This document shows positions 19,166 through 28,513 of a stretch of 32,432 bases of DNA, piece by piece. Position numbers and translations under genes: made by a program. The notes beneath the pieces were generated by a model. It made no database searches, had not been told where the DNA came from, and saw only the letters and a list, made by a program, of their open reading frames with translations. Source of the DNA: an uncultured Bacillota bacterium (GTDB lineage: Bacteria > Bacillota > Clostridia > Peptostreptococcales > Anaerovoracaceae); NCBI GenBank assembly GCA_949290475.1, contig CASESB010000044.1, forward strand, positions 1-32,432, read 5' to 3'. How positions within the stretch are numbered: the first letter of the stretch is position 1; every line of letters starts with the position of its first letter.

Positions 19166-20905
19166 ATGAACTACAATTACATACTGCTCACACAGGAGCA
19201 GGTATTCGGCACAGACAGGATCGACATCATCGGTGCGATTGGCACGGAATGCGGCAGATCCGATTTTGCGATCCTCGCGGACAACGATAGCGGCAGGGAA
19301 AGAAACGGCCGCTGGTTTCTCTCCTCAGCTCCCGGCTACGGCGATGTATGTATGGTCGACCGTGACGGCAGCAGAGCGATATCCTACTCGACCTCACGCG
19401 GCGGCATACGTCCCGTGATCGCATGCCGCGACATTTCCGCGTTTTCGGACAAACGATCCGTAACCGCCTCCGGTTTCGAGGCTGTTTCTTTTGGAGAGTA
19501 CCCGCAGAACGCTGCAGACAGAGATACCGCAAAGCTCCTGGATCAGGAGTTTGCAGGAAGCCGGCTGATAAAGACCGGCAAGCGATACGGCGCACAGTAC
19601 GACGAATTCCAGCACGACGGACATAAATACATCAGAGCCGCCTGCACATCGACTGATCCCGTCTTGCTTTCAGACGGCAAAAGCTATAAGGACGGCGATA
19701 TCGTCTGGATCGAGGTAACGCCGGTCAGATGGCTATACGACGAAAGGGCCGGGCTGCTGGTCAGCGAGAACATCCTCATGTCCGGGCTGCTGTTTTCCGC
19801 AGAGAGCTACTACGACGGTGATTTTGAGAAGACCGCGATATATAACTACCTCAACACGACGTTCGCGCAGGATATGATCCCCAGCGAATTCCACGTCATG
19901 ACTCCTGAGGAAAAAGCCGCATATGAAGAGGAAATCAGAAGAGCCGCCGAACGTCAGAACCCCTACCATCTTACTTTCGGTGAGGTCAGCGAAGAGGATA
20001 TCATACGCGGTGCCATCGAGAGCGACATCGCGGTATTCCTGCACGGGCCTTCCTCCGAGGGCAAGAGTGCCAGAGTCAAGCAGATAGATCCTACGTGTGA
20101 AATCATCTACCTGCGCAACGCCACGCCCGACAGCCTGAACGGGCGCAGCGTCTACAACCAGTCGACGGGCGACATGATAGACATACCGCCTACGTGGTTC
20201 AAAAAAGTACAGGCAAAATGCGAGCAGGAGCCAGACAGGCTGCACGTCGTATTTTTCGACGAGATCAACAACGCGCTGCCGAGCATCCAGGGCATGGCCT
20301 TCAATATCGTGCTCGACAGAGAGGTGAACGGCATCTGGAAGCTCCCCGAAAACGCCAGAGTCGTCGCCGCCGGCAACGACACGCAGGACTCGCTGGCCGC
20401 GCACCAGCTGGCCGCGCCGTTTTTCAACAGATTCGCCCACGTATATATAAACACGACGACGGACAAATGGCTCAGATGGGCGCGCGCCAACGATATACAC
20501 CCGGCCATCTACGCGTACATAGCCTGCAGGAAGGGCGAACCGCTGAGAAGCGAATACGACGGCGAAAAGCCGAATGCCGATCCGCGAAAATGGGAGATGG
20601 CCTCGAAGATGCTGTACGCGACAGGACGCCCGGAGATGCTGCGTTCTCTCGTCGGCGAAGAGATCACCGACGAATTCGTGCGCTTCTGCCGCCAGCCGGT
20701 CATCACGCTGGAGGATGTCCTCAGCGGCAATTACAGTGACAGCGACATCTCCGGCATGGACACCTCGCAGCGATATGCGACGACCGTCGGACTGACGCAG
20801 GCAGCTGCTGACGAGCTGGAGACAGTCCGTGCTTTCGTATCTAAGCTCGGAGAAGAGTTCAGAGCCGTGTTCGACTCCTTCACATCGCGGGGAGCAAAGA
20901 AATGA
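19166..20905 (+). CDS. MoxR-like AAA+ ATPase with an extra N-terminal domain
   Basis: The C-terminal half (from about residue 265) is an AAA+ ATPase of the AAA_5/MoxR group. It has Walker A HGPSSEGKS near residues 293-301, Walker B VVFFDEINN near 361-369 and a sensor AAGNDT, and it reads like a chaperone ATPase. The N-terminal about 240 residues carry two fragments (GRWFLSS...GGIRPVI and FGEYPQNA...GLLVSENIL). They resemble the DUF6273-type domain often found in surface or phage-related Clostridia proteins; this part is unusual for MoxR. No signal peptide is seen. The start ATG 19166 has AAGGA 11 nt upstream; ATG 19154 would overlap that site. It overlaps the next gene by ATGA, so the two probably form one complex. 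Confidence 0.75.
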   Translation: MNYNYILLTQEQVFGTDRIDIIGAIGTECGRSDFAILADNDSGRERNGRWFLSSAPGYGDVCMVDRDGSRAISYSTSRGGIRPVIACRDISAFSDKRSVTASGFEAVSFGEYPQNAADRDTAKLLDQEFAGSRLIKTGKRYGAQYDEFQHDGHKYIRAACTSTDPVLLSDGKSYKDGDIVWIEVTPVRWLYDERAGLLVSENILMSGLLFSAESYYDGDFEKTAIYNYLNTTFAQDMIPSEFHVMTPEEKAAYEEEIRRAAERQNPYHLTFGEVSEEDIIRGAIESDIAVFLHGPSSEGKSARVKQIDPTCEIIYLRNATPDSLNGRSVYNQSTGDMIDIPPTWFKKVQAKCEQEPDRLHVVFFDEINNALPSIQGMAFNIVLDREVNGIWKLPENARVVAAGNDTQDSLAAHQLAAPFFNRFAHVYINTTTDKWLRWARANDIHPAIYAYIACRKGEPLRSEYDGEKPNADPRKWEMASKMLYATGRPEMLRSLVGEEITDEFVRFCRQPVITLEDVLSGNYSDSDISGMDTSQRYATTVGLTQAAADELETVRAFVSKLGEEFRAVFDSFTSRGAKK

Positions 20906-22077
20906 TCTACGATATCGCAGCGCTGAGACGCAAGGTGATCGCCATGTACCCGTTCTTCGGCAGCGTGGCGGCTAACATCGAATACCGCGAGACAGAAGGC
21001 GTTCCGTCGATCACGAGCGATGAGCGCAGCATTTCCTACGATCCGCAGTACATGGCCGGACTCTCCGATAACGATCAGGTCTTCGTGTTGGCCCGCGAGC
21101 TGTGCCATGTCGCTTTCAGGCACAGAGCGAGAGGCAAAGGCAAGGACCCGGCGATCTGGCAGACCGCCACCGAGGCGATCATCAATCAGATGCTGAAGCG
21201 CGACGGGCTCGACATCATCCGCGGCGGCGTCGATTATCCGGAGGCGGCCGATTACGATGCCGAGCAGTACTACGAGCTGCTGCTGAGCGAAAGGCTGGAT
21301 ATAGATCTTACGGACGGCCAGCTCGAGGGTCAGGAAAACCCTGCCGGCGGCAATAGCGATAGCGGCCAGGGAAACAGTGACGACGAACAGGAATCGGACG
21401 ACGATGACGGCGATGACGACGGCAGCGACGAGCTTTACACCGGCTTGCTGCCCGAAAAGAACAGCGATGACAACGATCCCGAGGATGACGATCAGGCTCT
21501 GATCGAAGATACGGAATCGGATGCCGGAAACGACATCAACAGAGACACCAGGGCAGTCGAAGATATCGGCAGACTTGCCCCGCTCCTTGACTGGCGGCTC
21601 CTGCTGCTCGATACCATCAGTTACGGCGTGGACTGGTCCTATAGGAACGCGATACTCGAAGACGGCATCGTCAGATCCGTCCTGGAGGAAAAGCCTTTCC
21701 CGGAAACCGAGATCGTTCTCGACACCAGCTGGTCTGTGGACGAGGAGCTGCTCAGGAACTTTCTCAGAGAATGCAAGAACATACTGCCGCTGTCAAAGCT
21801 CAGGGCAGGCTGTTTCGATACCGAGTTCTACGGATTTCACGACATCAGGACAGAAAAGGATATCGACGACATGGTTTTCCAGGGCGGCGGCGGTACGGAT
21901 TTCAACGCGGCAGTAGATGCCTTCACAATGCGCGTCGATAACAGGATCATATTCACGGACGGACAGGCGCCGATGCCGGACAGACCTCTGAAAGCGATCT
22001 GGGTAGTCTGCGGCGAAGAGGAGATCGCTCCCGACGGCGGCATCGTCATCCATATAAAGCCGGAACAGCTGTTATAG
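20902..22077 (+). CDS. DUF2201-type protein: metallopeptidase-like N-terminus plus VWA-like domain
   Basis: The 391-residue protein has the order typical of DUF2201 partners of MoxR ATPases. An N-terminal putative metallopeptidase-like helical domain (1-130) is followed by a highly acidic, low-complexity linker (about 134-225, rich in Asp/Glu/Gly/Ser) and a C-terminal VWA-like domain. The VWA part shows an intact MIDAS: DTSWS (DxSxS), a TDF threonine in GGGGTDFNAAVDAF and FTDG. In the N-terminal domain the expected HExxH reads RELCH (residues 65-69), with a further His74, so the first zinc ligand is replaced by Arg and peptidase activity is doubtful. Translation is coupled to the ATPase gene by a 4-nt ATGA overlap. 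Confidence 0.78.
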   Translation: MIYDIAALRRKVIAMYPFFGSVAANIEYRETEGVPSITSDERSISYDPQYMAGLSDNDQVFVLARELCHVAFRHRARGKGKDPAIWQTATEAIINQMLKRDGLDIIRGGVDYPEAADYDAEQYYELLLSERLDIDLTDGQLEGQENPAGGNSDSGQGNSDDEQESDDDDGDDDGSDELYTGLLPEKNSDDNDPEDDDQALIEDTESDAGNDINRDTRAVEDIGRLAPLLDWRLLLLDTISYGVDWSYRNAILEDGIVRSVLEEKPFPETEIVLDTSWSVDEELLRNFLRECKNILPLSKLRAGCFDTEFYGFHDIRTEKDIDDMVFQGGGGTDFNAAVDAFTMRVDNRIIFTDGQAPMPDRPLKAIWVVCGEEEIAPDGGIVIHIKPEQLL

Positions 22078-22083
22078 CACATC

Positions 22084-22141
22084 AAAAAACCGGACGCTGA
22101 CAAACTCCACAAGTCAGCATCCGGCAATCAGCGTCCGGCAA
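22084..22141 (-). terminator. Terminator-like structure with alternative pairing
   Basis: CCGGACGCTGA (22090-22100) pairs perfectly with TCAGCGTCCGG (22128-22138), or less well with TCAGCATCCGG (22114-22124). The last two belong to a 14-bp tandem repeat (22114-22127, 22128-22141). On the minus strand the stem is followed by TTTTTT (22089-22084), so it would stop transcription coming from the rplT side before it runs antisense into the VWA gene. Confidence 0.6.
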
Positions 22142-22254
22142 AAAATTGAAACCGTTACCCGCAGGCAGCTTCGCATGCCTGCTTGATATGTCTGCTTGTG
22201 CCTGCCCCGGCTCGCGCCTATGCTCGCGCCCACTTGTTAATATTCACCTTATCT

Positions 22255-22284
22255 ACCGCTGTTTTTAACAAAATAGCGGTTTTT
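22255..22284 (+). terminator. Probable plus-strand terminator
   Basis: ACCGCT (22255-22260) pairs with AGCGGT (22275-22280) over a 14-nt loop and is followed by a T-run to 22284. It is the best U-rich stop for the ATPase/VWA transcript, about 180 nt after its stop codon. Confidence 0.5.
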
Positions 22285-22526
22285 CAGGCTTCTCGGCAGC
22301 GGCCAGTTGCTAATATCTCTCGATTTCCTTAAGATATTAACAAGTTTCACCGCTATCGGATCCAAATTATTGTTAAAGACAGGCTGTTATCCTCAATTTA
22401 TTATCAACTGCACCTCGCGCAGAGCGTCTGCAGAGCCGATAATTGTTAAAATTTAACCTTTAACCGATAATTTTATCAACTCCTTTTGTCCACCCAGTAC
22501 GCACTGTGAGGCTCCAAAAGCAACTC

Positions 22527-22571
22527 AAAACCGCTACAAATCATTGAAATTATAATGATTGTAGCGGTTTT
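22527..22571 (-). terminator. Bidirectional terminator after rplT
   Basis: CCGCTACAATCATT-type arms (22531-22545 and 22553-22567) form a stem of about 14 bp with one bulge. It is flanked by AAAA on the left and TTTTT on the right, so it can act on both strands. It lies about 50 nt after the rplT stop codon. Confidence 0.85.
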
Positions 22572-22620
22572 TACCAAATCTTTTTGCCCTATAAGCCTGT
22601 CTCTCCCCGCGGTGATCCGC

Positions 22621-22974
22621 TTACAGCGCCTTCTTCGCCGTATCGCAGAGTGCGGAGAAGGCCGCAGGATCGTGGATGGCCATCTCCGAAAGCATCTTCC
22701 TGTTGATCTCGATGTTCGACTTCTTCAGGCCGTTCATCAGTCTGCTGTAGGAGATATCGTTCATTCTGGCCGCAGCGTTGATTCTGGCGATCCACAGCTT
22801 CCTGTACTCTCTCTTCTTGTTCTTTCTGCCTACGTATGCGGAGCGGAGCGCTCTCATAGTGGCCGGCTTTGCGGCTCTGAACGTCTTGCTCTTAGCGCCG
22901 TAATAGCCCTTAGCCATCTTTAATATCTTCTTATGTCTCTTATGTGCGTTTAAACCCTTTTTTACTCTTGCCAT
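22621..22974 (-). CDS. rplT: 50S ribosomal protein L20
   Basis: L20 is an early assembly protein of the large subunit and, in Bacillota, the autogenous repressor of this operon. The 117-residue length and basic N-terminal tail ([18 protein letters not shown]) are standard, and the [11 protein letters not shown] motif is present. AGGAGG lies 7 nt upstream. It is the last gene of infC-rpmI-rplT, 12 nt after rpmI. The operon leader at 23746-23903 is the expected target of L20. Confidence 0.98.
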
Positions 22975-22986
22975 CTTGCTACCTCC

Positions 22987-23187
22987 TTACTTGCTCAATA
23001 CCGCTTTGATTCTCTTGAGATCCGCGTTCGTCAGAGTAGTAGCCTTTCTCAGGCCTCTCTTTCTCTTCTGGCTCTTCTTGGTAAGAATATGGCTCTTATA
23101 CGCTTTGTTTCTCTTGACTTTACCTGAACCTGTTATCTTGAATCTTTTTGACGCGCCTCTGTGAGACTTCATTTTCTGCTTTGCCAT
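22987..23187 (-). CDS. rpmI: 50S ribosomal protein L35
   Basis: The 66-residue, highly basic protein has the L35 pattern [22 protein letters not shown], then [15 protein letters not shown]. It is located between infC (28 nt gap) and rplT (12 nt gap), the universal order. Confidence 0.98.
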
Positions 23188-23215
23188 CGTGTATTATCCT
23201 CCTACTCTTTATTTG

Positions 23216-23731
23216 TTACTTGTCGCTCTTCGGTGTGAGTATCATCGTCAGGCTTCTGCCCTCAAAGCTCGGCTTCTTATCTATCTCGCCGACCTCCGAA
23301 ACGGCTTCCGCGAACTTGTTCATGACCTCCATGCCTCTGGCGACGTAATCTCTCTCTCTTCCCCTGAACCTCAGGCTGACCTTCAGCTTGTCTCCGTCCT
23401 TGAGGAACTTCGACCCCGTCTTGGCCTTGACCATGATGTCGTGATCCTCTATGAACGTCGACAGCCTGATCTCCTTGACCTGAGTCGTTTTCTGCTTTTT
23501 CCTTGCTTCCTTTTCCTTTTTTTGAAGCTCATACTTGTACTTTCCGTAGTCGAGTATCTTGCAGACCGGCGGATTTGCCTTCGGCGATACGCAGACCAGA
23601 TCCAGCTTCCTCTCCTCGGACAGATCAAGGGCTTCCTGTCTGCTCATGACTCCCAGCTGACTGCCGTCCGTATCGATAACTCTCAGTTCCTTCGCACGAA
23701 TTTCTTCGTTTATCATAGCTTCTTTGCTAAT
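23216..23731 (-). CDS. infC: Translation initiation factor IF-3 (AUU start)
   Basis: IF-3 binds the 30S subunit, prevents premature 50S joining and rejects non-canonical start codons. The best start is ATT at 23729-23731. It has GGAGGT 8 nt upstream, and it places the N-terminus (ISKEAMINEEIRAKEL) exactly in line with the Bacillus IF-3 start (MSKDFIINEQIR). The first ATG (23714-23716) is 26 nt from that Shine-Dalgarno sequence, and ATG frames further upstream run through the leader hairpin. The 171-residue product has an N-terminal domain (1-75), a lysine-rich linker (KKEKEARKKQK) and a C-terminal domain. An AUU start allows IF-3 to repress its own translation. Confidence 0.93.
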   Translation of the reverse strand: MSKEAMINEEIRAKELRVIDTDGSQLGVMSRQEALDLSEERKLDLVCVSPKANPPVCKILDYGKYKYELQKKEKEARKKQKTTQVKEIRLSTFIEDHDIMVKAKTGSKFLKDGDKLKVSLRFRGRERDYVARGMEVMNKFAEAVSEVGEIDKKPSFEGRSLTMILTPKSDK

Positions 23732-23745
23732 TGTACTGTACCTCC

Positions 23746-23903
23746 AAAAAAATCTTCCAATGAAAAAAGCGGATACATTCATCCGCTTCATCTACGCATT
23801 ATCTCAATCCTCGCATGCTTGCGCATCGAGACCGGAGCCTGCCTGATATCGACCCAAGCGCCTTCGCCCTTAGGTGAGAAGCGGATAACTTCTACTTACT
23901 ACC
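23746..23903 (-). promoter_or_regulatory. L20-type leader with attenuator upstream of infC
   Basis: The leader runs from the predicted start site (about 23903) to the infC ribosome binding site. Near its 5' end it reads ATCCGCTTC (23886-23878) followed by TCACCT, as in L20 leaders of Bacillota. A terminator stem (AAGCGGAT/ATCCGCTT, 23767-23774 with 23781-23788, then TTTTTT at 23768-23763) lies before infC. The upstream ATCCGCTTC can pair over 9 bp with GAAGCGGAT (23789-23781), forming an antiterminator that excludes the terminator. In Bacillus, L20 binding favours the terminator; the same logic fits here. Confidence 0.85.
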
Positions 23904-23909
23904 TGAATT

Positions 23910-23938
23910 ACTATACCACAGGCCCCGATCATATGCAA
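23910..23938 (-). promoter_or_regulatory. Promoter of infC-rpmI-rplT
   Basis: The minus strand shows TTGCAT (23933-23938), a 17-bp spacer and TATAGT (23910-23915). It lies in the gap after trxA. Confidence 0.82.
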
Positions 23939-23970
23939 GAACTTTTTATGCAAAGCGCCGCCCGCGCTTT

Positions 23971-24282
23971 CTACAGCCCCAGCTCCTGAGCGATCTGCTC
24001 CTTTGAACGCAGTCCGACCAGAGTCTTGACAGCCTGACCGTCCTTGAAATACATGAGCGTCGGGATGCTGGAAACGCCGAACTTTATAGCCAGCGCCTGC
24101 TCTTCGTCAACGTTGATCTTACCGATCTTTATGCTGTCGTACTGCGCCGCCATCTCATCGAGCACCGGCCCCTGCATCATGCACGGCCCGCACCACGAAG
24201 CCCAGAAATCCACCAGCACCGGCTTGTCCGAGTTCTTTACCTCCGCATCGAAATTGCTCTGTGTTATCTTTACTATATCCAT
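23971..24282 (-). CDS. trxA: Thioredoxin
   Basis: This small cytosolic disulfide reductase is recycled by thioredoxin reductase. The 103-residue protein has the active site WCGPC (Cys31, Cys34), the preceding VDFWASW strand, the cis-proline region SSIPTLMYF and a normal C-terminus. The start is ATG 24282, with AAAGGA 11 nt upstream; a GTG three codons earlier lies too close to that site. It is transcribed alone from the promoter at 24367-24395, divergently from the aldehyde dehydrogenase gene. Confidence 0.96.
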   Translation of the reverse strand: MDIVKITQSNFDAEVKNSDKPVLVDFWASWCGPCMMQGPVLDEMAAQYDSIKIGKINVDEEQALAIKFGVSSIPTLMYFKDGQAVKTLVGLRSKEQIAQELGL

Positions 24283-25937: not shown

Positions 25938-26098
25938 TCAGCGCCGCGCGCACACCGGCGCAGTATTCAGCGCCTGGTGCGCTGTTACACACGGCGACTG
26001 CTCGTCGCGCATGCCGGCGCAAACAACAGGGTGTCCATCGCGCGCCGCACAGTATTCAGCGCCGGACGCGCCGCCACACACAGAATTTGGAGGGGAAA
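25938..26098. repeat. GC-rich spacer with direct repeats
   Basis: The spacer between the dehydrogenase and transaminase genes is unusually GC-rich and repetitive. CAGTATTCAGCGCC occurs at 25961-25974 and 26050-26063, 89 bp apart, each inside a longer imperfect GCGC...CACAC context. No terminator with a U-run is seen, so both genes can share one transcript. The last bases carry the GGAGGGG ribosome binding site of the transaminase. Confidence 0.7.
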
Positions 26099-27424
26099 AT
26101 GTTATCTGTAAAGGAAAAGGATCTGAAATACAATCTGCACTCGTGGTCAGCCCAGGGCGGTCTCGACCCGATAGTAGTAACAAAAGCCGAAGGCATATAT
26201 TTCTGGGATGAAAACGGCAAACGCTATGCTGACATGTCGGCTCAGCTCGTCAATTCCAACCTCGGTCACGGCAATCAGGCCATCGCCGATGCTATTGCCG
26301 AACAGGCGAAGGATATCGCCTTTATCGGCCCGGGCTTCGCGCTCAAATGCCGTTCCGACGCCGCTGAAGCTATCGTCAGAGCGACGGGCTTTGCGGACGG
26401 AGCCAAGGTGTTCTTCGCTAACGCCGGCGCCGAGGCCAACGAAAACGCCATCAAGATCGCCAGACAGTACACGGGAAAATACAAGATATTCTCGCAGTAC
26501 AGAAGCTATCACGGTTCCTCTGCCGGAGCCGGTATGCTTACCGGCGAACCGAGACGATTTTTCAACGAGCCGGGCAGCATCGGCTTCGTAAAATACGACA
26601 CGCCGTACCCTTACAGAACGCCTAAGGCCTGCCGCTTCAATAGCGAAGACGAGATCGCCGAATTCTATCTGGAGCTACTGGAAAATCAGATCCTCTACGA
26701 GGGCCCCGACACCATAGCCGCCATCTGGTACGAATCCGTAGTCGGTTCAAACGGCGTCATCATCGCACCTGCGAGGTGGTATCAGGGTGTACGCGAGCTC
26801 TGCGACAAATACGGCATCCTCATGGTGGCAGACGAAGTCATGGCCGGCTGGTACAGGACGGGTAAATGCTTCGCCTACATGAATTTCGGCTATGAACCCG
26901 ATATGATAACATTTGCCAAAGGCTCCACCTGCGGCTATGCGCCGTTGGGCGGCGTCGTAATGCAGGCAAGGATCGCTTCCTTCTTCGATGACACGCCGCT
27001 GGGATGCGGCCTCACATACTCGGCTCATCCGCTGGGATGCGCGGCAGCCGTAGCCACACTCAGGCAGTACGAGGAACTCGATATCGCAAACGCTATGAAG
27101 CCCGCTTCCGAGCTGCTCGCCGATACGCTCGACGGCTTCGTTTCCGCCCACAGCTGCGTGGGCGACGTCCGCCACATCGGCCTCTTCTCGGCAGTCGAGC
27201 TCGTCAAAGACAAGGAGAGCCGCGAGCCGCTGGTGCCTTTCGGCAATGATCCGGACGGCATCATGGGACGTATCATGGGCATGCTCAAGGAAAGGGGCTT
27301 CTGGACATACACGCACGAGAACATGATCATCGTCGCCCCGCCGCTCATCATCACGCCTGACGAGCTCAGAGAGCAGCTGGCGATCCTCGATGAGGTGCTG
27401 ACAAAAGTCGATAAGATGATATGA
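26099..27424 (+). CDS. Class III aminotransferase, taurine/beta-alanine type
   Basis: The 441-residue PLP enzyme is a class III omega-transaminase. It has GIYFWDENGKRYADM near the N-terminus, FFANAGAEANENAIKIAR, the YRSYHGSS segment and DEVMAGWYRTGKCF. The Schiff-base lysine is Lys274 in TFAKGSTCGYAPLGG. The HSWSAQGGLDPI opening is typical of proteins annotated as taurine-2-oxoglutarate or beta-alanine transaminases. Such an enzyme would make sulfoacetaldehyde (or malonate semialdehyde) for the acylating dehydrogenase upstream. Substrate choice is an inference; other omega-amino acids are possible. The start is ATG 26099 with GGAGGGG 4 nt upstream; a TTG at 26087 would lie inside that site. 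Confidence 0.83.
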   Translation: MLSVKEKDLKYNLHSWSAQGGLDPIVVTKAEGIYFWDENGKRYADMSAQLVNSNLGHGNQAIADAIAEQAKDIAFIGPGFALKCRSDAAEAIVRATGFADGAKVFFANAGAEANENAIKIARQYTGKYKIFSQYRSYHGSSAGAGMLTGEPRRFFNEPGSIGFVKYDTPYPYRTPKACRFNSEDEIAEFYLELLENQILYEGPDTIAAIWYESVVGSNGVIIAPARWYQGVRELCDKYGILMVADEVMAGWYRTGKCFAYMNFGYEPDMITFAKGSTCGYAPLGGVVMQARIASFFDDTPLGCGLTYSAHPLGCAAAVATLRQYEELDIANAMKPASELLADTLDGFVSAHSCVGDVRHIGLFSAVELVKDKESREPLVPFGNDPDGIMGRIMGMLKERGFWTYTHENMIIVAPPLIITPDELREQLAILDEVLTKVDKMI

Positions 27425-27442
27425 TTGGTGATATCAGACGCT

Positions 27443-27718
27443 TGCATCGTTTTTTGAGATTCATTTGCTTTTTCGATGCAGCGAACACAGGCTTGCACCG
27501 CATATGACTTGTATAACGAAAATTCGATGTACACTGCATCGGATTTTCGTTTTTATGCGGATATTCGATGCACCGGATATCCTCATAATATGGCATGACA
27601 GCGCAAAATGTCTTTTATGCCGTTATATTGCATCGAATTTGTTCTTATATCGAAAATTTCGATGCAACTCCGGTGACGACTGCATCGAAAAATGACCATC
27701 ACGCAATAATTCGATGCA
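27443..27718. repeat. Array of five 38-bp inverted-repeat units, TGCATCG-N24-CGATGCA
   Basis: Five units lie at 27443-27480, 27494-27531, 27535-27572, 27629-27666 and 27681-27718. Each is exactly 38 bp, with TGCATCG at the left end and CGATGCA at the right end; the second unit is degenerate (TGCACCG, CGATGTA). In three units the ends extend to TGCATCGAA or TTCGATGCA. The 24-bp interiors are AT-rich and not alike. Gaps between units are 13, 3, 56 and 14 bp. No other copy of the motif was seen in the window. It lies between the transaminase stop and the lexA promoter and contains the transaminase terminator. The function is unknown. Confidence 0.85.
27516..27554 (+). terminator. Terminator after the transaminase gene
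   Basis: ACGAAAATTCGATG (27516-27529) pairs with CATCGGATTTTCGT (27537-27550), 14 bp with one G-U pair and a 7-nt loop, followed by TTTTT. It is built from the right end of the second and the left end of the third 38-bp unit of the array. Confidence 0.8.
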
Positions 27719-27786
27719 CACGTGCGTTTTGCCGCCACCGGCTGCTCCATCGGACTCATATCACTCACCCTTGTTCACGCAAAAGA

Positions 27787-27824
27787 AAACACATGTTTAC
27801 TTTTTGTTCGTTCTGTGCTATTAT
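27787..27824 (+). promoter_or_regulatory. lexA promoter with an overlapping LexA-like box
   Basis: A weak promoter reads TTTACT (27796-27801), 17 bp, TATTAT (27819-27824). AAACACATGTTT (27787-27798) overlaps its -35 box and resembles the Bacillota SOS box GAAC-N4-GTTC, with A for G and T for C at the outer positions (10 of 12 with the usual centre). Binding there would give LexA autorepression. Confidence 0.6.
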
Positions 27825-27850
27825 GTTCTCATACAAAGGAGGGTTTGCTT

Positions 27851-28513
27851 ATGCTGAAGGACAGAGAACAGAAGATCCTTGACTACATGAGAGAAGAGAT
27901 TCGTAAGAAGGGTTATCCGCCTACGGTCCGTGAGATCTGTTCGGCTCTGAACATCAAATCAACATCAACGGCTCACAAGGATATATCCAGCCTCGTGCGG
28001 CAGGGCTACATCAAAAAAGACCCTTCTAAACCGCGTGCGCTCATGCTGGTAGATGCCGATTCCGAGGATGATGCTGCGATGCGCACAGCATCGGGATACG
28101 GGCGCTACGACGGCGTTTCCGATACTGAAGTGATAGAGATACCTGTCGTCGGCAGAATAGCCGCCGGTACTCCTATTCTGGCAGAGCAGAATATAGAGGA
28201 CAGCTTCCCCGTTCCGGCCAGATTCGTCGGCAGCAACCCCAACTTCATGCTCACCGTGAGAGGCGAAAGCATGATCGAGGCCGGCATCATGGATGGCGAC
28301 TATATACTTGTAGAACAGCAGAACACAGCCCGCAACGGCGATATCGTTGTTGCCATGGTCGACGGGTTCGAGAGCGAGGCCACCGTGAAGACTTTCTATA
28401 AAGAGGGCGATCATATAAGGCTCCAGCCTGAGAATTCCACCATGAGTCCGATCATAGTGAATGACGTCAAGATCCTCGGCAAGGTCAAGGGCGTGTTCAG
28501 ATATTTCCAGTAG
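27851..28513 (+). CDS. lexA: LexA repressor (SOS regulator)
   Basis: LexA represses DNA-damage genes until RecA filaments trigger its self-cleavage. The 220-residue protein has an N-terminal winged helix-turn-helix (residues 1-65, YPPTVREICSALNIKSTSTA). A linker leads to the S24 protease domain, with the Ala105-Gly106 cleavage site in VGRIAAGTP, Ser140 in RGESMI and Lys180 in EATVKTF. All catalytic parts are intact. The start is ATG 27851, with AAAGGAGGG 8 nt upstream; the frame is open further left but lacks a start signal. It is monocistronic, with a terminator at 28550-28585. Confidence 0.97.
   Translation: MLKDREQKILDYMREEIRKKGYPPTVREICSALNIKSTSTAHKDISSLVRQGYIKKDPSKPRALMLVDADSEDDAAMRTASGYGRYDGVSDTEVIEIPVVGRIAAGTPILAEQNIEDSFPVPARFVGSNPNFMLTVRGESMIEAGIMDGDYILVEQQNTARNGDIVVAMVDGFESEATVKTFYKEGDHIRLQPENSTMSPIIVNDVKILGKVKGVFRYFQ

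Follow-up and report, generated by a model that had tools for sequence, protein, structure and literature searches.

A phased array of inverted half-sites

The window (the whole 32,432-nt stretch analyzed here, which is contig C44 of a genome of 1.51 Mb and 84% completeness) carries a 276-bp array of inverted repeats (27443–27718). It consists of five unstranded 38-bp units in which TGCATCG is followed, after 24 free positions, by CGATGCA, as a previous sequence-only reading of the window had described. Units 1 (27443–27480), 3 (27535–27572), 4 (27629–27666), and 5 (27681–27718) have exact half-sites, and unit 2 (27494–27531) is degenerate (TGCACCG...CGATGTA, two mismatches). The exact pattern occurs four times in the window and not once in 100 dinucleotide shuffles. 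Gaps of 13, 3, 56, and 14 bp separate the units (the 56-bp spacer being 27573–27628). Within a unit the half-site centers are 31 bp apart, which corresponds to 3.0 helical turns and not to the 2.8 estimated earlier. A CRISPR array, already doubted in that reading, was set aside given the gaps of 3 to 56 bp and since no cas-like ORF was noticed in the flanks read.

By our reading of the ORF lists, the array sits between two codirectional genes, given here as context only: a + strand ORF upstream (26087–27424), which we take from its translation to be aminotransferase-like, and a + strand gene downstream (27851–28513) that is, judging by its translation, presumably lexA. The array does adjoin lexA, as had been pointed out, but the proximity is incidental. 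A lexA operator was considered and rejected: 29 other lexA loci of relatives (flanks of up to 1.5 kb, some shorter) lack the TGCATCG array, and its sister copies lie by other genes. The hairpin that two adjacent units had been proposed to build exists: it is terminator-like, on the + strand (27515–27551), downstream of the aminotransferase-like ORF, with 15-nt arms that come from the inner arms of units 2 and 3 and a T run behind them. A local terminator role of arrays is likely in some places, of which this hairpin is an example. A search of window 26900–28100 against Rfam gave no match at E ≤ 1.

Four arrays with one layout in the source genome

A genome-wide count against chance had been fixed beforehand as a test of the pattern, and the pattern withstood it, with 10 exact occurrences of TGCATCG-N24-CGATGCA versus none for the reversed control pattern. 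When the number of free positions was allowed to range from 15 to 40, 10 of the 11 exact matches still had N24 (the reversed control pattern gave one), which bears out the constant spacing; the eleventh match is 45 bp long and includes a 38-bp unit that carries one mismatch. Single units at up to three mismatches numbered 132 in the source genome versus 33 for the control, so weak single units mean little. The exact unit was found in none of the 48 other genomes of the genus, and a double unit with up to three mismatches, present five times in the source genome, was likewise found in none of them; some of the genomes used are incomplete. We rejected a widespread family defined by the exact half-site, since a scan of genome contigs returned only four stretches: two tandem repeats with another spacing (Bacteroides and Phocaeicola records) and two isolated matches that, by reading, look coding. 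The same pattern had 0 matches in viral contigs.

The units form four arrays (on contigs C2, C11, C36, and C44), and a single unit with one mismatch stands by itself on C20. Every array has five units with gaps of 13 or 14, 3, 56, and 14 bp and a total length of 276 or 277 bp. The gaps had been said to vary, which is correct along a single array, where they are irregular, but not across the genome, where all four arrays have the same ones. The 56-bp spacer is conserved in length and not in sequence, and CACAG is kept in the first gap of all four arrays. Among the 20 units, 10 are exact, six have one mismatch, and four have two. Between arrays, identity is 0.91 for half-sites and averages 0.43 for unit interiors, for which composition predicts 0.32; A/T-rich bases next to the half-sites account for part of this excess. 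The interiors, described as unrelated, are thus not wholly so. Decay, suggested earlier to account for the degenerate second unit, agrees with the C44 and C2 copies but not with C11 and C36, in which unit 2 is intact. The persistence of TGCATCG half-sites while the interiors are near random is odd for dead mobile copies.

Three of the copies lie between convergent genes by our reading of the ORF lists (C11 was read as convergent by translation), and no preference for convergent gaps was found (5/21 arrays vs. 45/200 background gaps). By reading, units 2 and 3 of the C2 copy seem to form an extended hairpin resembling the terminator-like one in the window.

A family of nuclease-like proteins

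The C2 copy (L012:8603–8878) adjoins the minus-strand gene of P0001, a protein of 286 aa, and the window array is a gene-less ("solo") copy of this P0001-side array. The C-terminal part of P0001 is a PD-(D/E)XK-like domain, that is, a putative nuclease. The PADLOC candidate PDC-S68 matches its last ~120 residues (E 2e-29), with residues 161–277 corresponding to the end of the 1221-position model and the N-terminal half having no match there. A Pfam search with P0001 found no family at E ≤ 1, HuH (Y1) transposases included, and NCBIfam gave one irrelevant match (E 0.16). No transposase gene was noticed beside the P0001 gene.

Matches to P0001 at E ≤ 1e-5 were found in 46 of 49 genus genomes, some of them partial (G045, for example, has a partial match only), with seven in the source genome and up to 15 in one genome among the matches listed. 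Because some of the 46 genomes match partially, full-length membership was confirmed only at 80 loci, from 33 of the 49 genomes; these loci are roughly the top of the matches listed, some of which were left out. The C-terminal ~120 residues match PDC-S68 in all 80 members. D217, F218, G234, and Y241 (P0001 numbering) are invariant, E187 and E231 are conserved in at least 90%, and H232 is nearly invariant. As far as the sequence can tell, these conserved acidic residues fit a PD-(D/E)XK-like core; the canonical K is not evident (WEHxG), and catalysis is putative. Likeness to the Tn7 TnsA and T7 endonuclease I folds is a matter of weak C-terminal profile similarity, all of it below significance: Pfam TnsA-like N matched five of 80 members (best E 0.015), DUF790 did as well (six of 80, best E 0.0026), and PDB endonuclease I scored E 0.11, behind an unrelated chain at E 0.063. 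PHROGs returned one weak endonuclease match for one of four family proteins (E 0.0032). Of 57 Pfam families matched by the 80 members, 25 were listed, and no Y1 transposase, Nop, HNH, or RuvC family was among these.

In the wider class, the family was detected at E ≤ 1e-15 in 15 of 196 sampled genomes (11/132 genera), in some of them partially. Searching viral contigs with three single family proteins yielded no relative, and a phage DNA search with locus L207 found none; matches in nine plasmid and three phage records are confined to the C-terminal part (coverage ≤46%). Genus genomes mostly hold several such proteins, many with their own half-site and arrays, and since some loci are syntenic between species, the family genes are not highly mobile. 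In two relatives (G028 and G033), a homologue lies between lexA and the aminotransferase-like gene; the inverted pair there is a different one and occurs twice, 135 bp apart. At the lexA loci L024 and L028 of two relatives, where the nuclease-like homologue occupies this position, a unit lies inside its own coding start.

Arrays lie beside many genes of the family

We scanned the homologue loci for 7-mer inverted pairs that recur, allowing any distance between 14 and 60 bp, with shuffled sequences and unrelated loci as controls. A score of at least 33 was reached at 41 of 80 homologue loci and at 0 of 36 control loci (Fisher 2.6e-9), the best control scoring 30. This threshold equals the best of 1600 homologue-locus shuffles, and 40 of the 80 loci lie strictly above it; one array at the threshold itself (L103; score 33, d 16) is doubtful. 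Control loci were 2.3–4.8 kb long and homologue loci 2.8–5.4 kb. The controls did not include the array-bearing chunk of the window or the lexA loci L024 and L028, each of which has a homologue; the control chunk at window 19201–24000 (score 30) in fact holds a TTGTTAA element (see below). At the remaining 39 homologue loci no array reached the threshold; in the source genome four of seven loci reached it and three did not.

In 38 of the 41 array loci, the nearest unit is inside the gene or within 350 bp of it, and arrays occur upstream, downstream, or on both sides. Half-sites mostly differ from locus to locus, with a few close relatives sharing one. The association recurs outside the genus, within the class, where 12 of 27 homologue loci scored at least 33 (best shuffle, 30); the most striking of them has units on both sides of the gene, 24 in all, that repeat every 53 bp.

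Unit spacings follow the turn of the DNA helix

Across the genus, unit-to-unit spacings cluster near 41, 52, 63, 73, 83, 94, 104, 115, and 135 bp. The best period was 10.47 bp (R = 0.78, n = 70 after removal of within-locus repeats, the doubtful L103, and the orthologous L113, L121, L122, and L149), whereas 500 random sets of 70 spacings, scanned over the same period range, reached an R of at most 0.44. In other genera (n = 20) the best period was 10.86 bp (R 0.80), with an R of 0.75 at 10.5 bp. Because unit spacings are multiples of ~10.5 bp, the sites would face roughly one side of double-stranded DNA. Half-site centers of the window array lie at 0, 31, 51, 82, 92, 123, 186, 217, 238, and 269 bp. 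Two loci, L131 and L150, have unit spacings of 92, 52, and 82 bp in common but different half-sites (TTGCAGA vs. TGTTGAT).

Half-site and N-terminal protein part change together at one locus

Loci L118, L121, L111, and L117 are syntenic and share a 74-bp unit period. Their half-sites differ, being AACCAC in L118 and L121, AACCACTG in L117, and AAGTACAAA in L111. Every unit shows the change, while an inner GAAACCCTTGAT-like stretch has for the most part stayed the same. Between the L118 and L111 proteins, identity is 40%–45% over residues 40–119, 85%–100% beyond residue 119, and 95%–100% from residue 160 on. Pairs that kept their half-site have N-terminal identities of 75%–90% (L110/L122), 80%–90% (L147/L149), and 100% (L118/L121). 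Two pairs weaken the pattern: L104/L113 keep the half-site at 50%–80% N-terminal identity, and L090/L091 share GTACAC at 5%–55%.

Over 780 pairs of 40 arrays (L103 left out), half-site similarity correlated with N-terminal identity given C-terminal identity (partial r 0.13, permutation p 0.012) and not with C-terminal identity given N-terminal identity (r −0.01, p 0.55). The overall N-terminal effect is small, and the syntenic L118/L111 case, a switch seen at one locus, is the telling one. Units of L118, L121, L117, and L124 have an asymmetric inner stretch like GAAACCCTTGATACTACGT despite their differing half-sites; it is weaker in L111 and L145.

Gene-less copies are dispersed through genomes

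A search without a preset half-site found 12 arrays of at least three units, all TGCATCG or TTGTTAA, in 45 stretches of the source genome (683 kb in total, including 4.8 kb counted twice); the stretches were not random, four having been picked for TGCATCG arrays and the others for earlier pattern matches on those contigs. Both half-sites also flank one nuclease homologue each, that of TTGTTAA being on C28. Genome-wide, TTGTTAA pairs gave 63 units at up to one mismatch (control 0), and TTGCAGT pairs gave 38 at up to two mismatches, 20 of them exact (control 15).

The window holds a second array, with TTGTTAA/TTAACAA half-sites (22234–22479, unstranded), which is a copy of a ~246-bp TTGTTAA element and is 74%–75% identical, as reverse complement, to two dispersed copies. 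It lies between a + strand ORF and a minus-strand gene that we take to be ribosomal protein L20-like. Seven ~246-bp copies, this one included, are 74%–86% identical to reference copies, and the copy at C20:17901 is 82%–86% identical to the dispersed ones. The arrays at C23:10560 (45%–55%) and, beside the gene, at C28:13445 (49%–57%) are barely above shuffled sequence (38%–53%), so the gene-side array is not a recent master copy. Five aligned TTGTTAA copies have sharp ends and unrelated flanks, and no target-site duplication was seen by eye at these partly diverged copies. The dispersed, sharp-ended copies make some mobilization of arrays plausible, which bears on the recombinase sites that the sequence-only reading had offered as one option.

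Dispersal was also found in another family of the class, in genome G135, which has one homologue at E ≤ 1e-15 and 45 units (control 0), located at the gene locus, at five further multi-unit places, and at two single ones. An AACCAC array at one locus in two close relatives (L239 and L238; G006:C19 and G010:C47) has two versus four 74-bp units and ends in the same half-unit stub in both, so arrays gain or lose whole 74-bp units; no homologue gene was noticed in the 1.7 and 3.1 kb examined. On G000:C20, a gene-less pair of TTGCAGT units, 137 bp apart, lies near a lone TGCATCG-type unit (L089:1698–1872, 1990–2027), so that two array families stand side by side.

A proposed mechanism and its relation to known systems

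We consider it probable that the arrays are the cognate double-stranded DNA-binding arrays of the nuclease-like P0001 family, dispersed in a manner resembling REPIN/RAYT; binding, cleavage, and dispersal are what we infer from the observations above. The array would be a multi-site DNA element whose inverted half-sites lie on one face of the double helix. The N-terminal part of P0001 would contact paired half-sites separated by three turns, with several dimers lining up on one DNA face, each protein also carrying the putative PD-(D/E)XK-like domain at its C terminus. Paired half-sites for a multimeric DNA-binding protein had been among the options listed at the outset, and the phased spacing, the candidate protein family, and the tracking of half-sites by its N-terminal part now back that option. 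The window copy would then count among the dispersed arrays that lack a gene, and by analogy with REPIN/RAYT its cognate protein probably spread it with the help of host repair or recombination; copy number, sharp ends, and a shared half-site are the reasons for suggesting protein-driven dispersal. The broader proposition has about an even chance of being right: that these are a class of elements in which the N-terminal part reads a private half-site, phased arrays spread non-autonomously, and protein and sites switch together, as a double-stranded DNA counterpart of RAYT/REPIN built on a PD-(D/E)XK fold.

REPIN/RAYT systems comprise a chromosomal gene near its own short inverted repeats, with many dispersed, extragenic, gene-less copies and coevolution of protein and repeat (PMC3116915, PMC8266576). 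The arrays described here likewise have a gene near its repeats and dispersed gene-less copies, with clean controls for two of three G000 half-sites and for G135, TTGCAGT being the half-site with a high control. The enzymes differ: RAYT is a HuH tyrosine transposase and P0001 is PD-(D/E)XK-like, and for this reason the P0001 system is not a member of REPIN/RAYT. TnpA-REP processes single-stranded REP and needs its fold, whereas here short half-sites are phased on double-stranded DNA, and arrays, unlike REPINs, have from two to more than 20 units.

Alternative explanations

Transcription into hairpins or guide RNAs with variable loops, in the manner of TIGR or CRISPR, would make the array an RNA element. 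Tandem stem-loop arrays with variable palindromes are found among TIGR systems, and palindromic units in tandem beside a single protein gene are a likeness to TIGR-Tas (PMC12045711). The short hairpins suggested by the sequence-only reading draw some weak support from folding: the window array folds with z −7.7 against dinucleotide shuffles, and with half-sites kept and interiors shuffled two of the four arrays still stand out (z −3.4 for C44 and −3.6 for C11, vs. −1.6 for C2 and −0.5 for C36). A hairpin with a conserved loop would also change its half-sites and keep its inner stretch, as the syntenic loci do. Base pairing argues the other way. Among 110 half-site positions that differ from consensus in 49 arrays (units preselected at up to two mismatches in 14; L103 and L121 left out), 104 changed on one side only, 75 of them breaking the pair and 29 leaving G-U; five changes were compensatory (0.8 expected) and one further was neither. 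The stems of one array are nearly identical in sequence, the spacing follows the DNA helix, the window array has no Rfam match, and the Nop domain of Tas, a protein with box C/D RNAs, has no counterpart among the Pfam families listed. Recognition as RNA is therefore not the simplest reading; the evidence favors recognition at the DNA level, the TIGR reading was set aside, and we regard an RNA element as improbable. Still less probable, to the point of being very hard to credit, are ordinary MITEs of a conventional insertion sequence with the nuclease-like gene as a chance neighbor. The TTGTTAA copies do resemble MITEs in being short, dispersed, non-coding, sharp-ended, and bounded by terminal inverted repeats, and the dispersed copies are no close relatives of the gene-side TTGTTAA array. 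Yet the phased internal sites are conserved, not the ends alone, no target-site duplication was visible by eye at the five aligned, partly diverged copies, and chance neighbors would hardly produce the excess of arrays at homologue over control loci, its recurrence elsewhere in the class, or half-sites that follow the N-terminal part of the protein.

Two further explanations keep recognition at the DNA level and give the arrays another role. The stronger of them, which we hold to be unlikely though worth serious attention, is that the arrays are useful to the host, a domesticated nucleoid or regulatory protein looping or wrapping DNA at them, with solo arrays kept because they work. MatP/matS and ParB/parS loop or wrap DNA at phased sites in a comparable way. 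Phased spacing suits wrapping, half-sites are conserved while interiors drift to near random, and some gene–array loci are syntenic between species. Half-sites and arrays nevertheless differ between species (the exact TGCATCG unit is confined to the source genome among those of the genus), copy number varies widely within one genome (four arrays of one half-site vs. 63 units of another), and the nuclease-like domain has conserved acidic residues. A defense or toxin system, in which the nuclease-like protein attacks foreign DNA and is sequestered or regulated by its own arrays, seems less probable again. It would account for the match of the C-terminal domain to a PADLOC candidate throughout the family, and a half-site that changes with the N-terminal part resembles specificity switching in restriction systems. 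PDC-S68 models are ~1200 residues long, however, and the likeness extends to the last ~120 positions and not to full length; the arrays may be upstream or downstream of the gene and are not steadily at promoters, and dispersed solo copies would not be needed.

Implications

Word matching in open PMC text recognized no description of such a protein/array pair. If the cognate DNA-binding reading is true, the arrays and their proteins would form a widespread class of genetic element, undescribed in the open literature searched, in the class of bacteria to which this genus belongs. A common, uncharacterized protein family is linked here to a DNA target that is legible in the sequence, and its function thereby becomes testable. 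Work on a recognition code could draw on some forty protein/half-site pairs in the genus, a few of them at the same locus with switched half-sites. Should the arrays be mobile, P0001 and its relatives would bring a new enzyme type into the small group of proteins that spread miniature repeats in bacteria.
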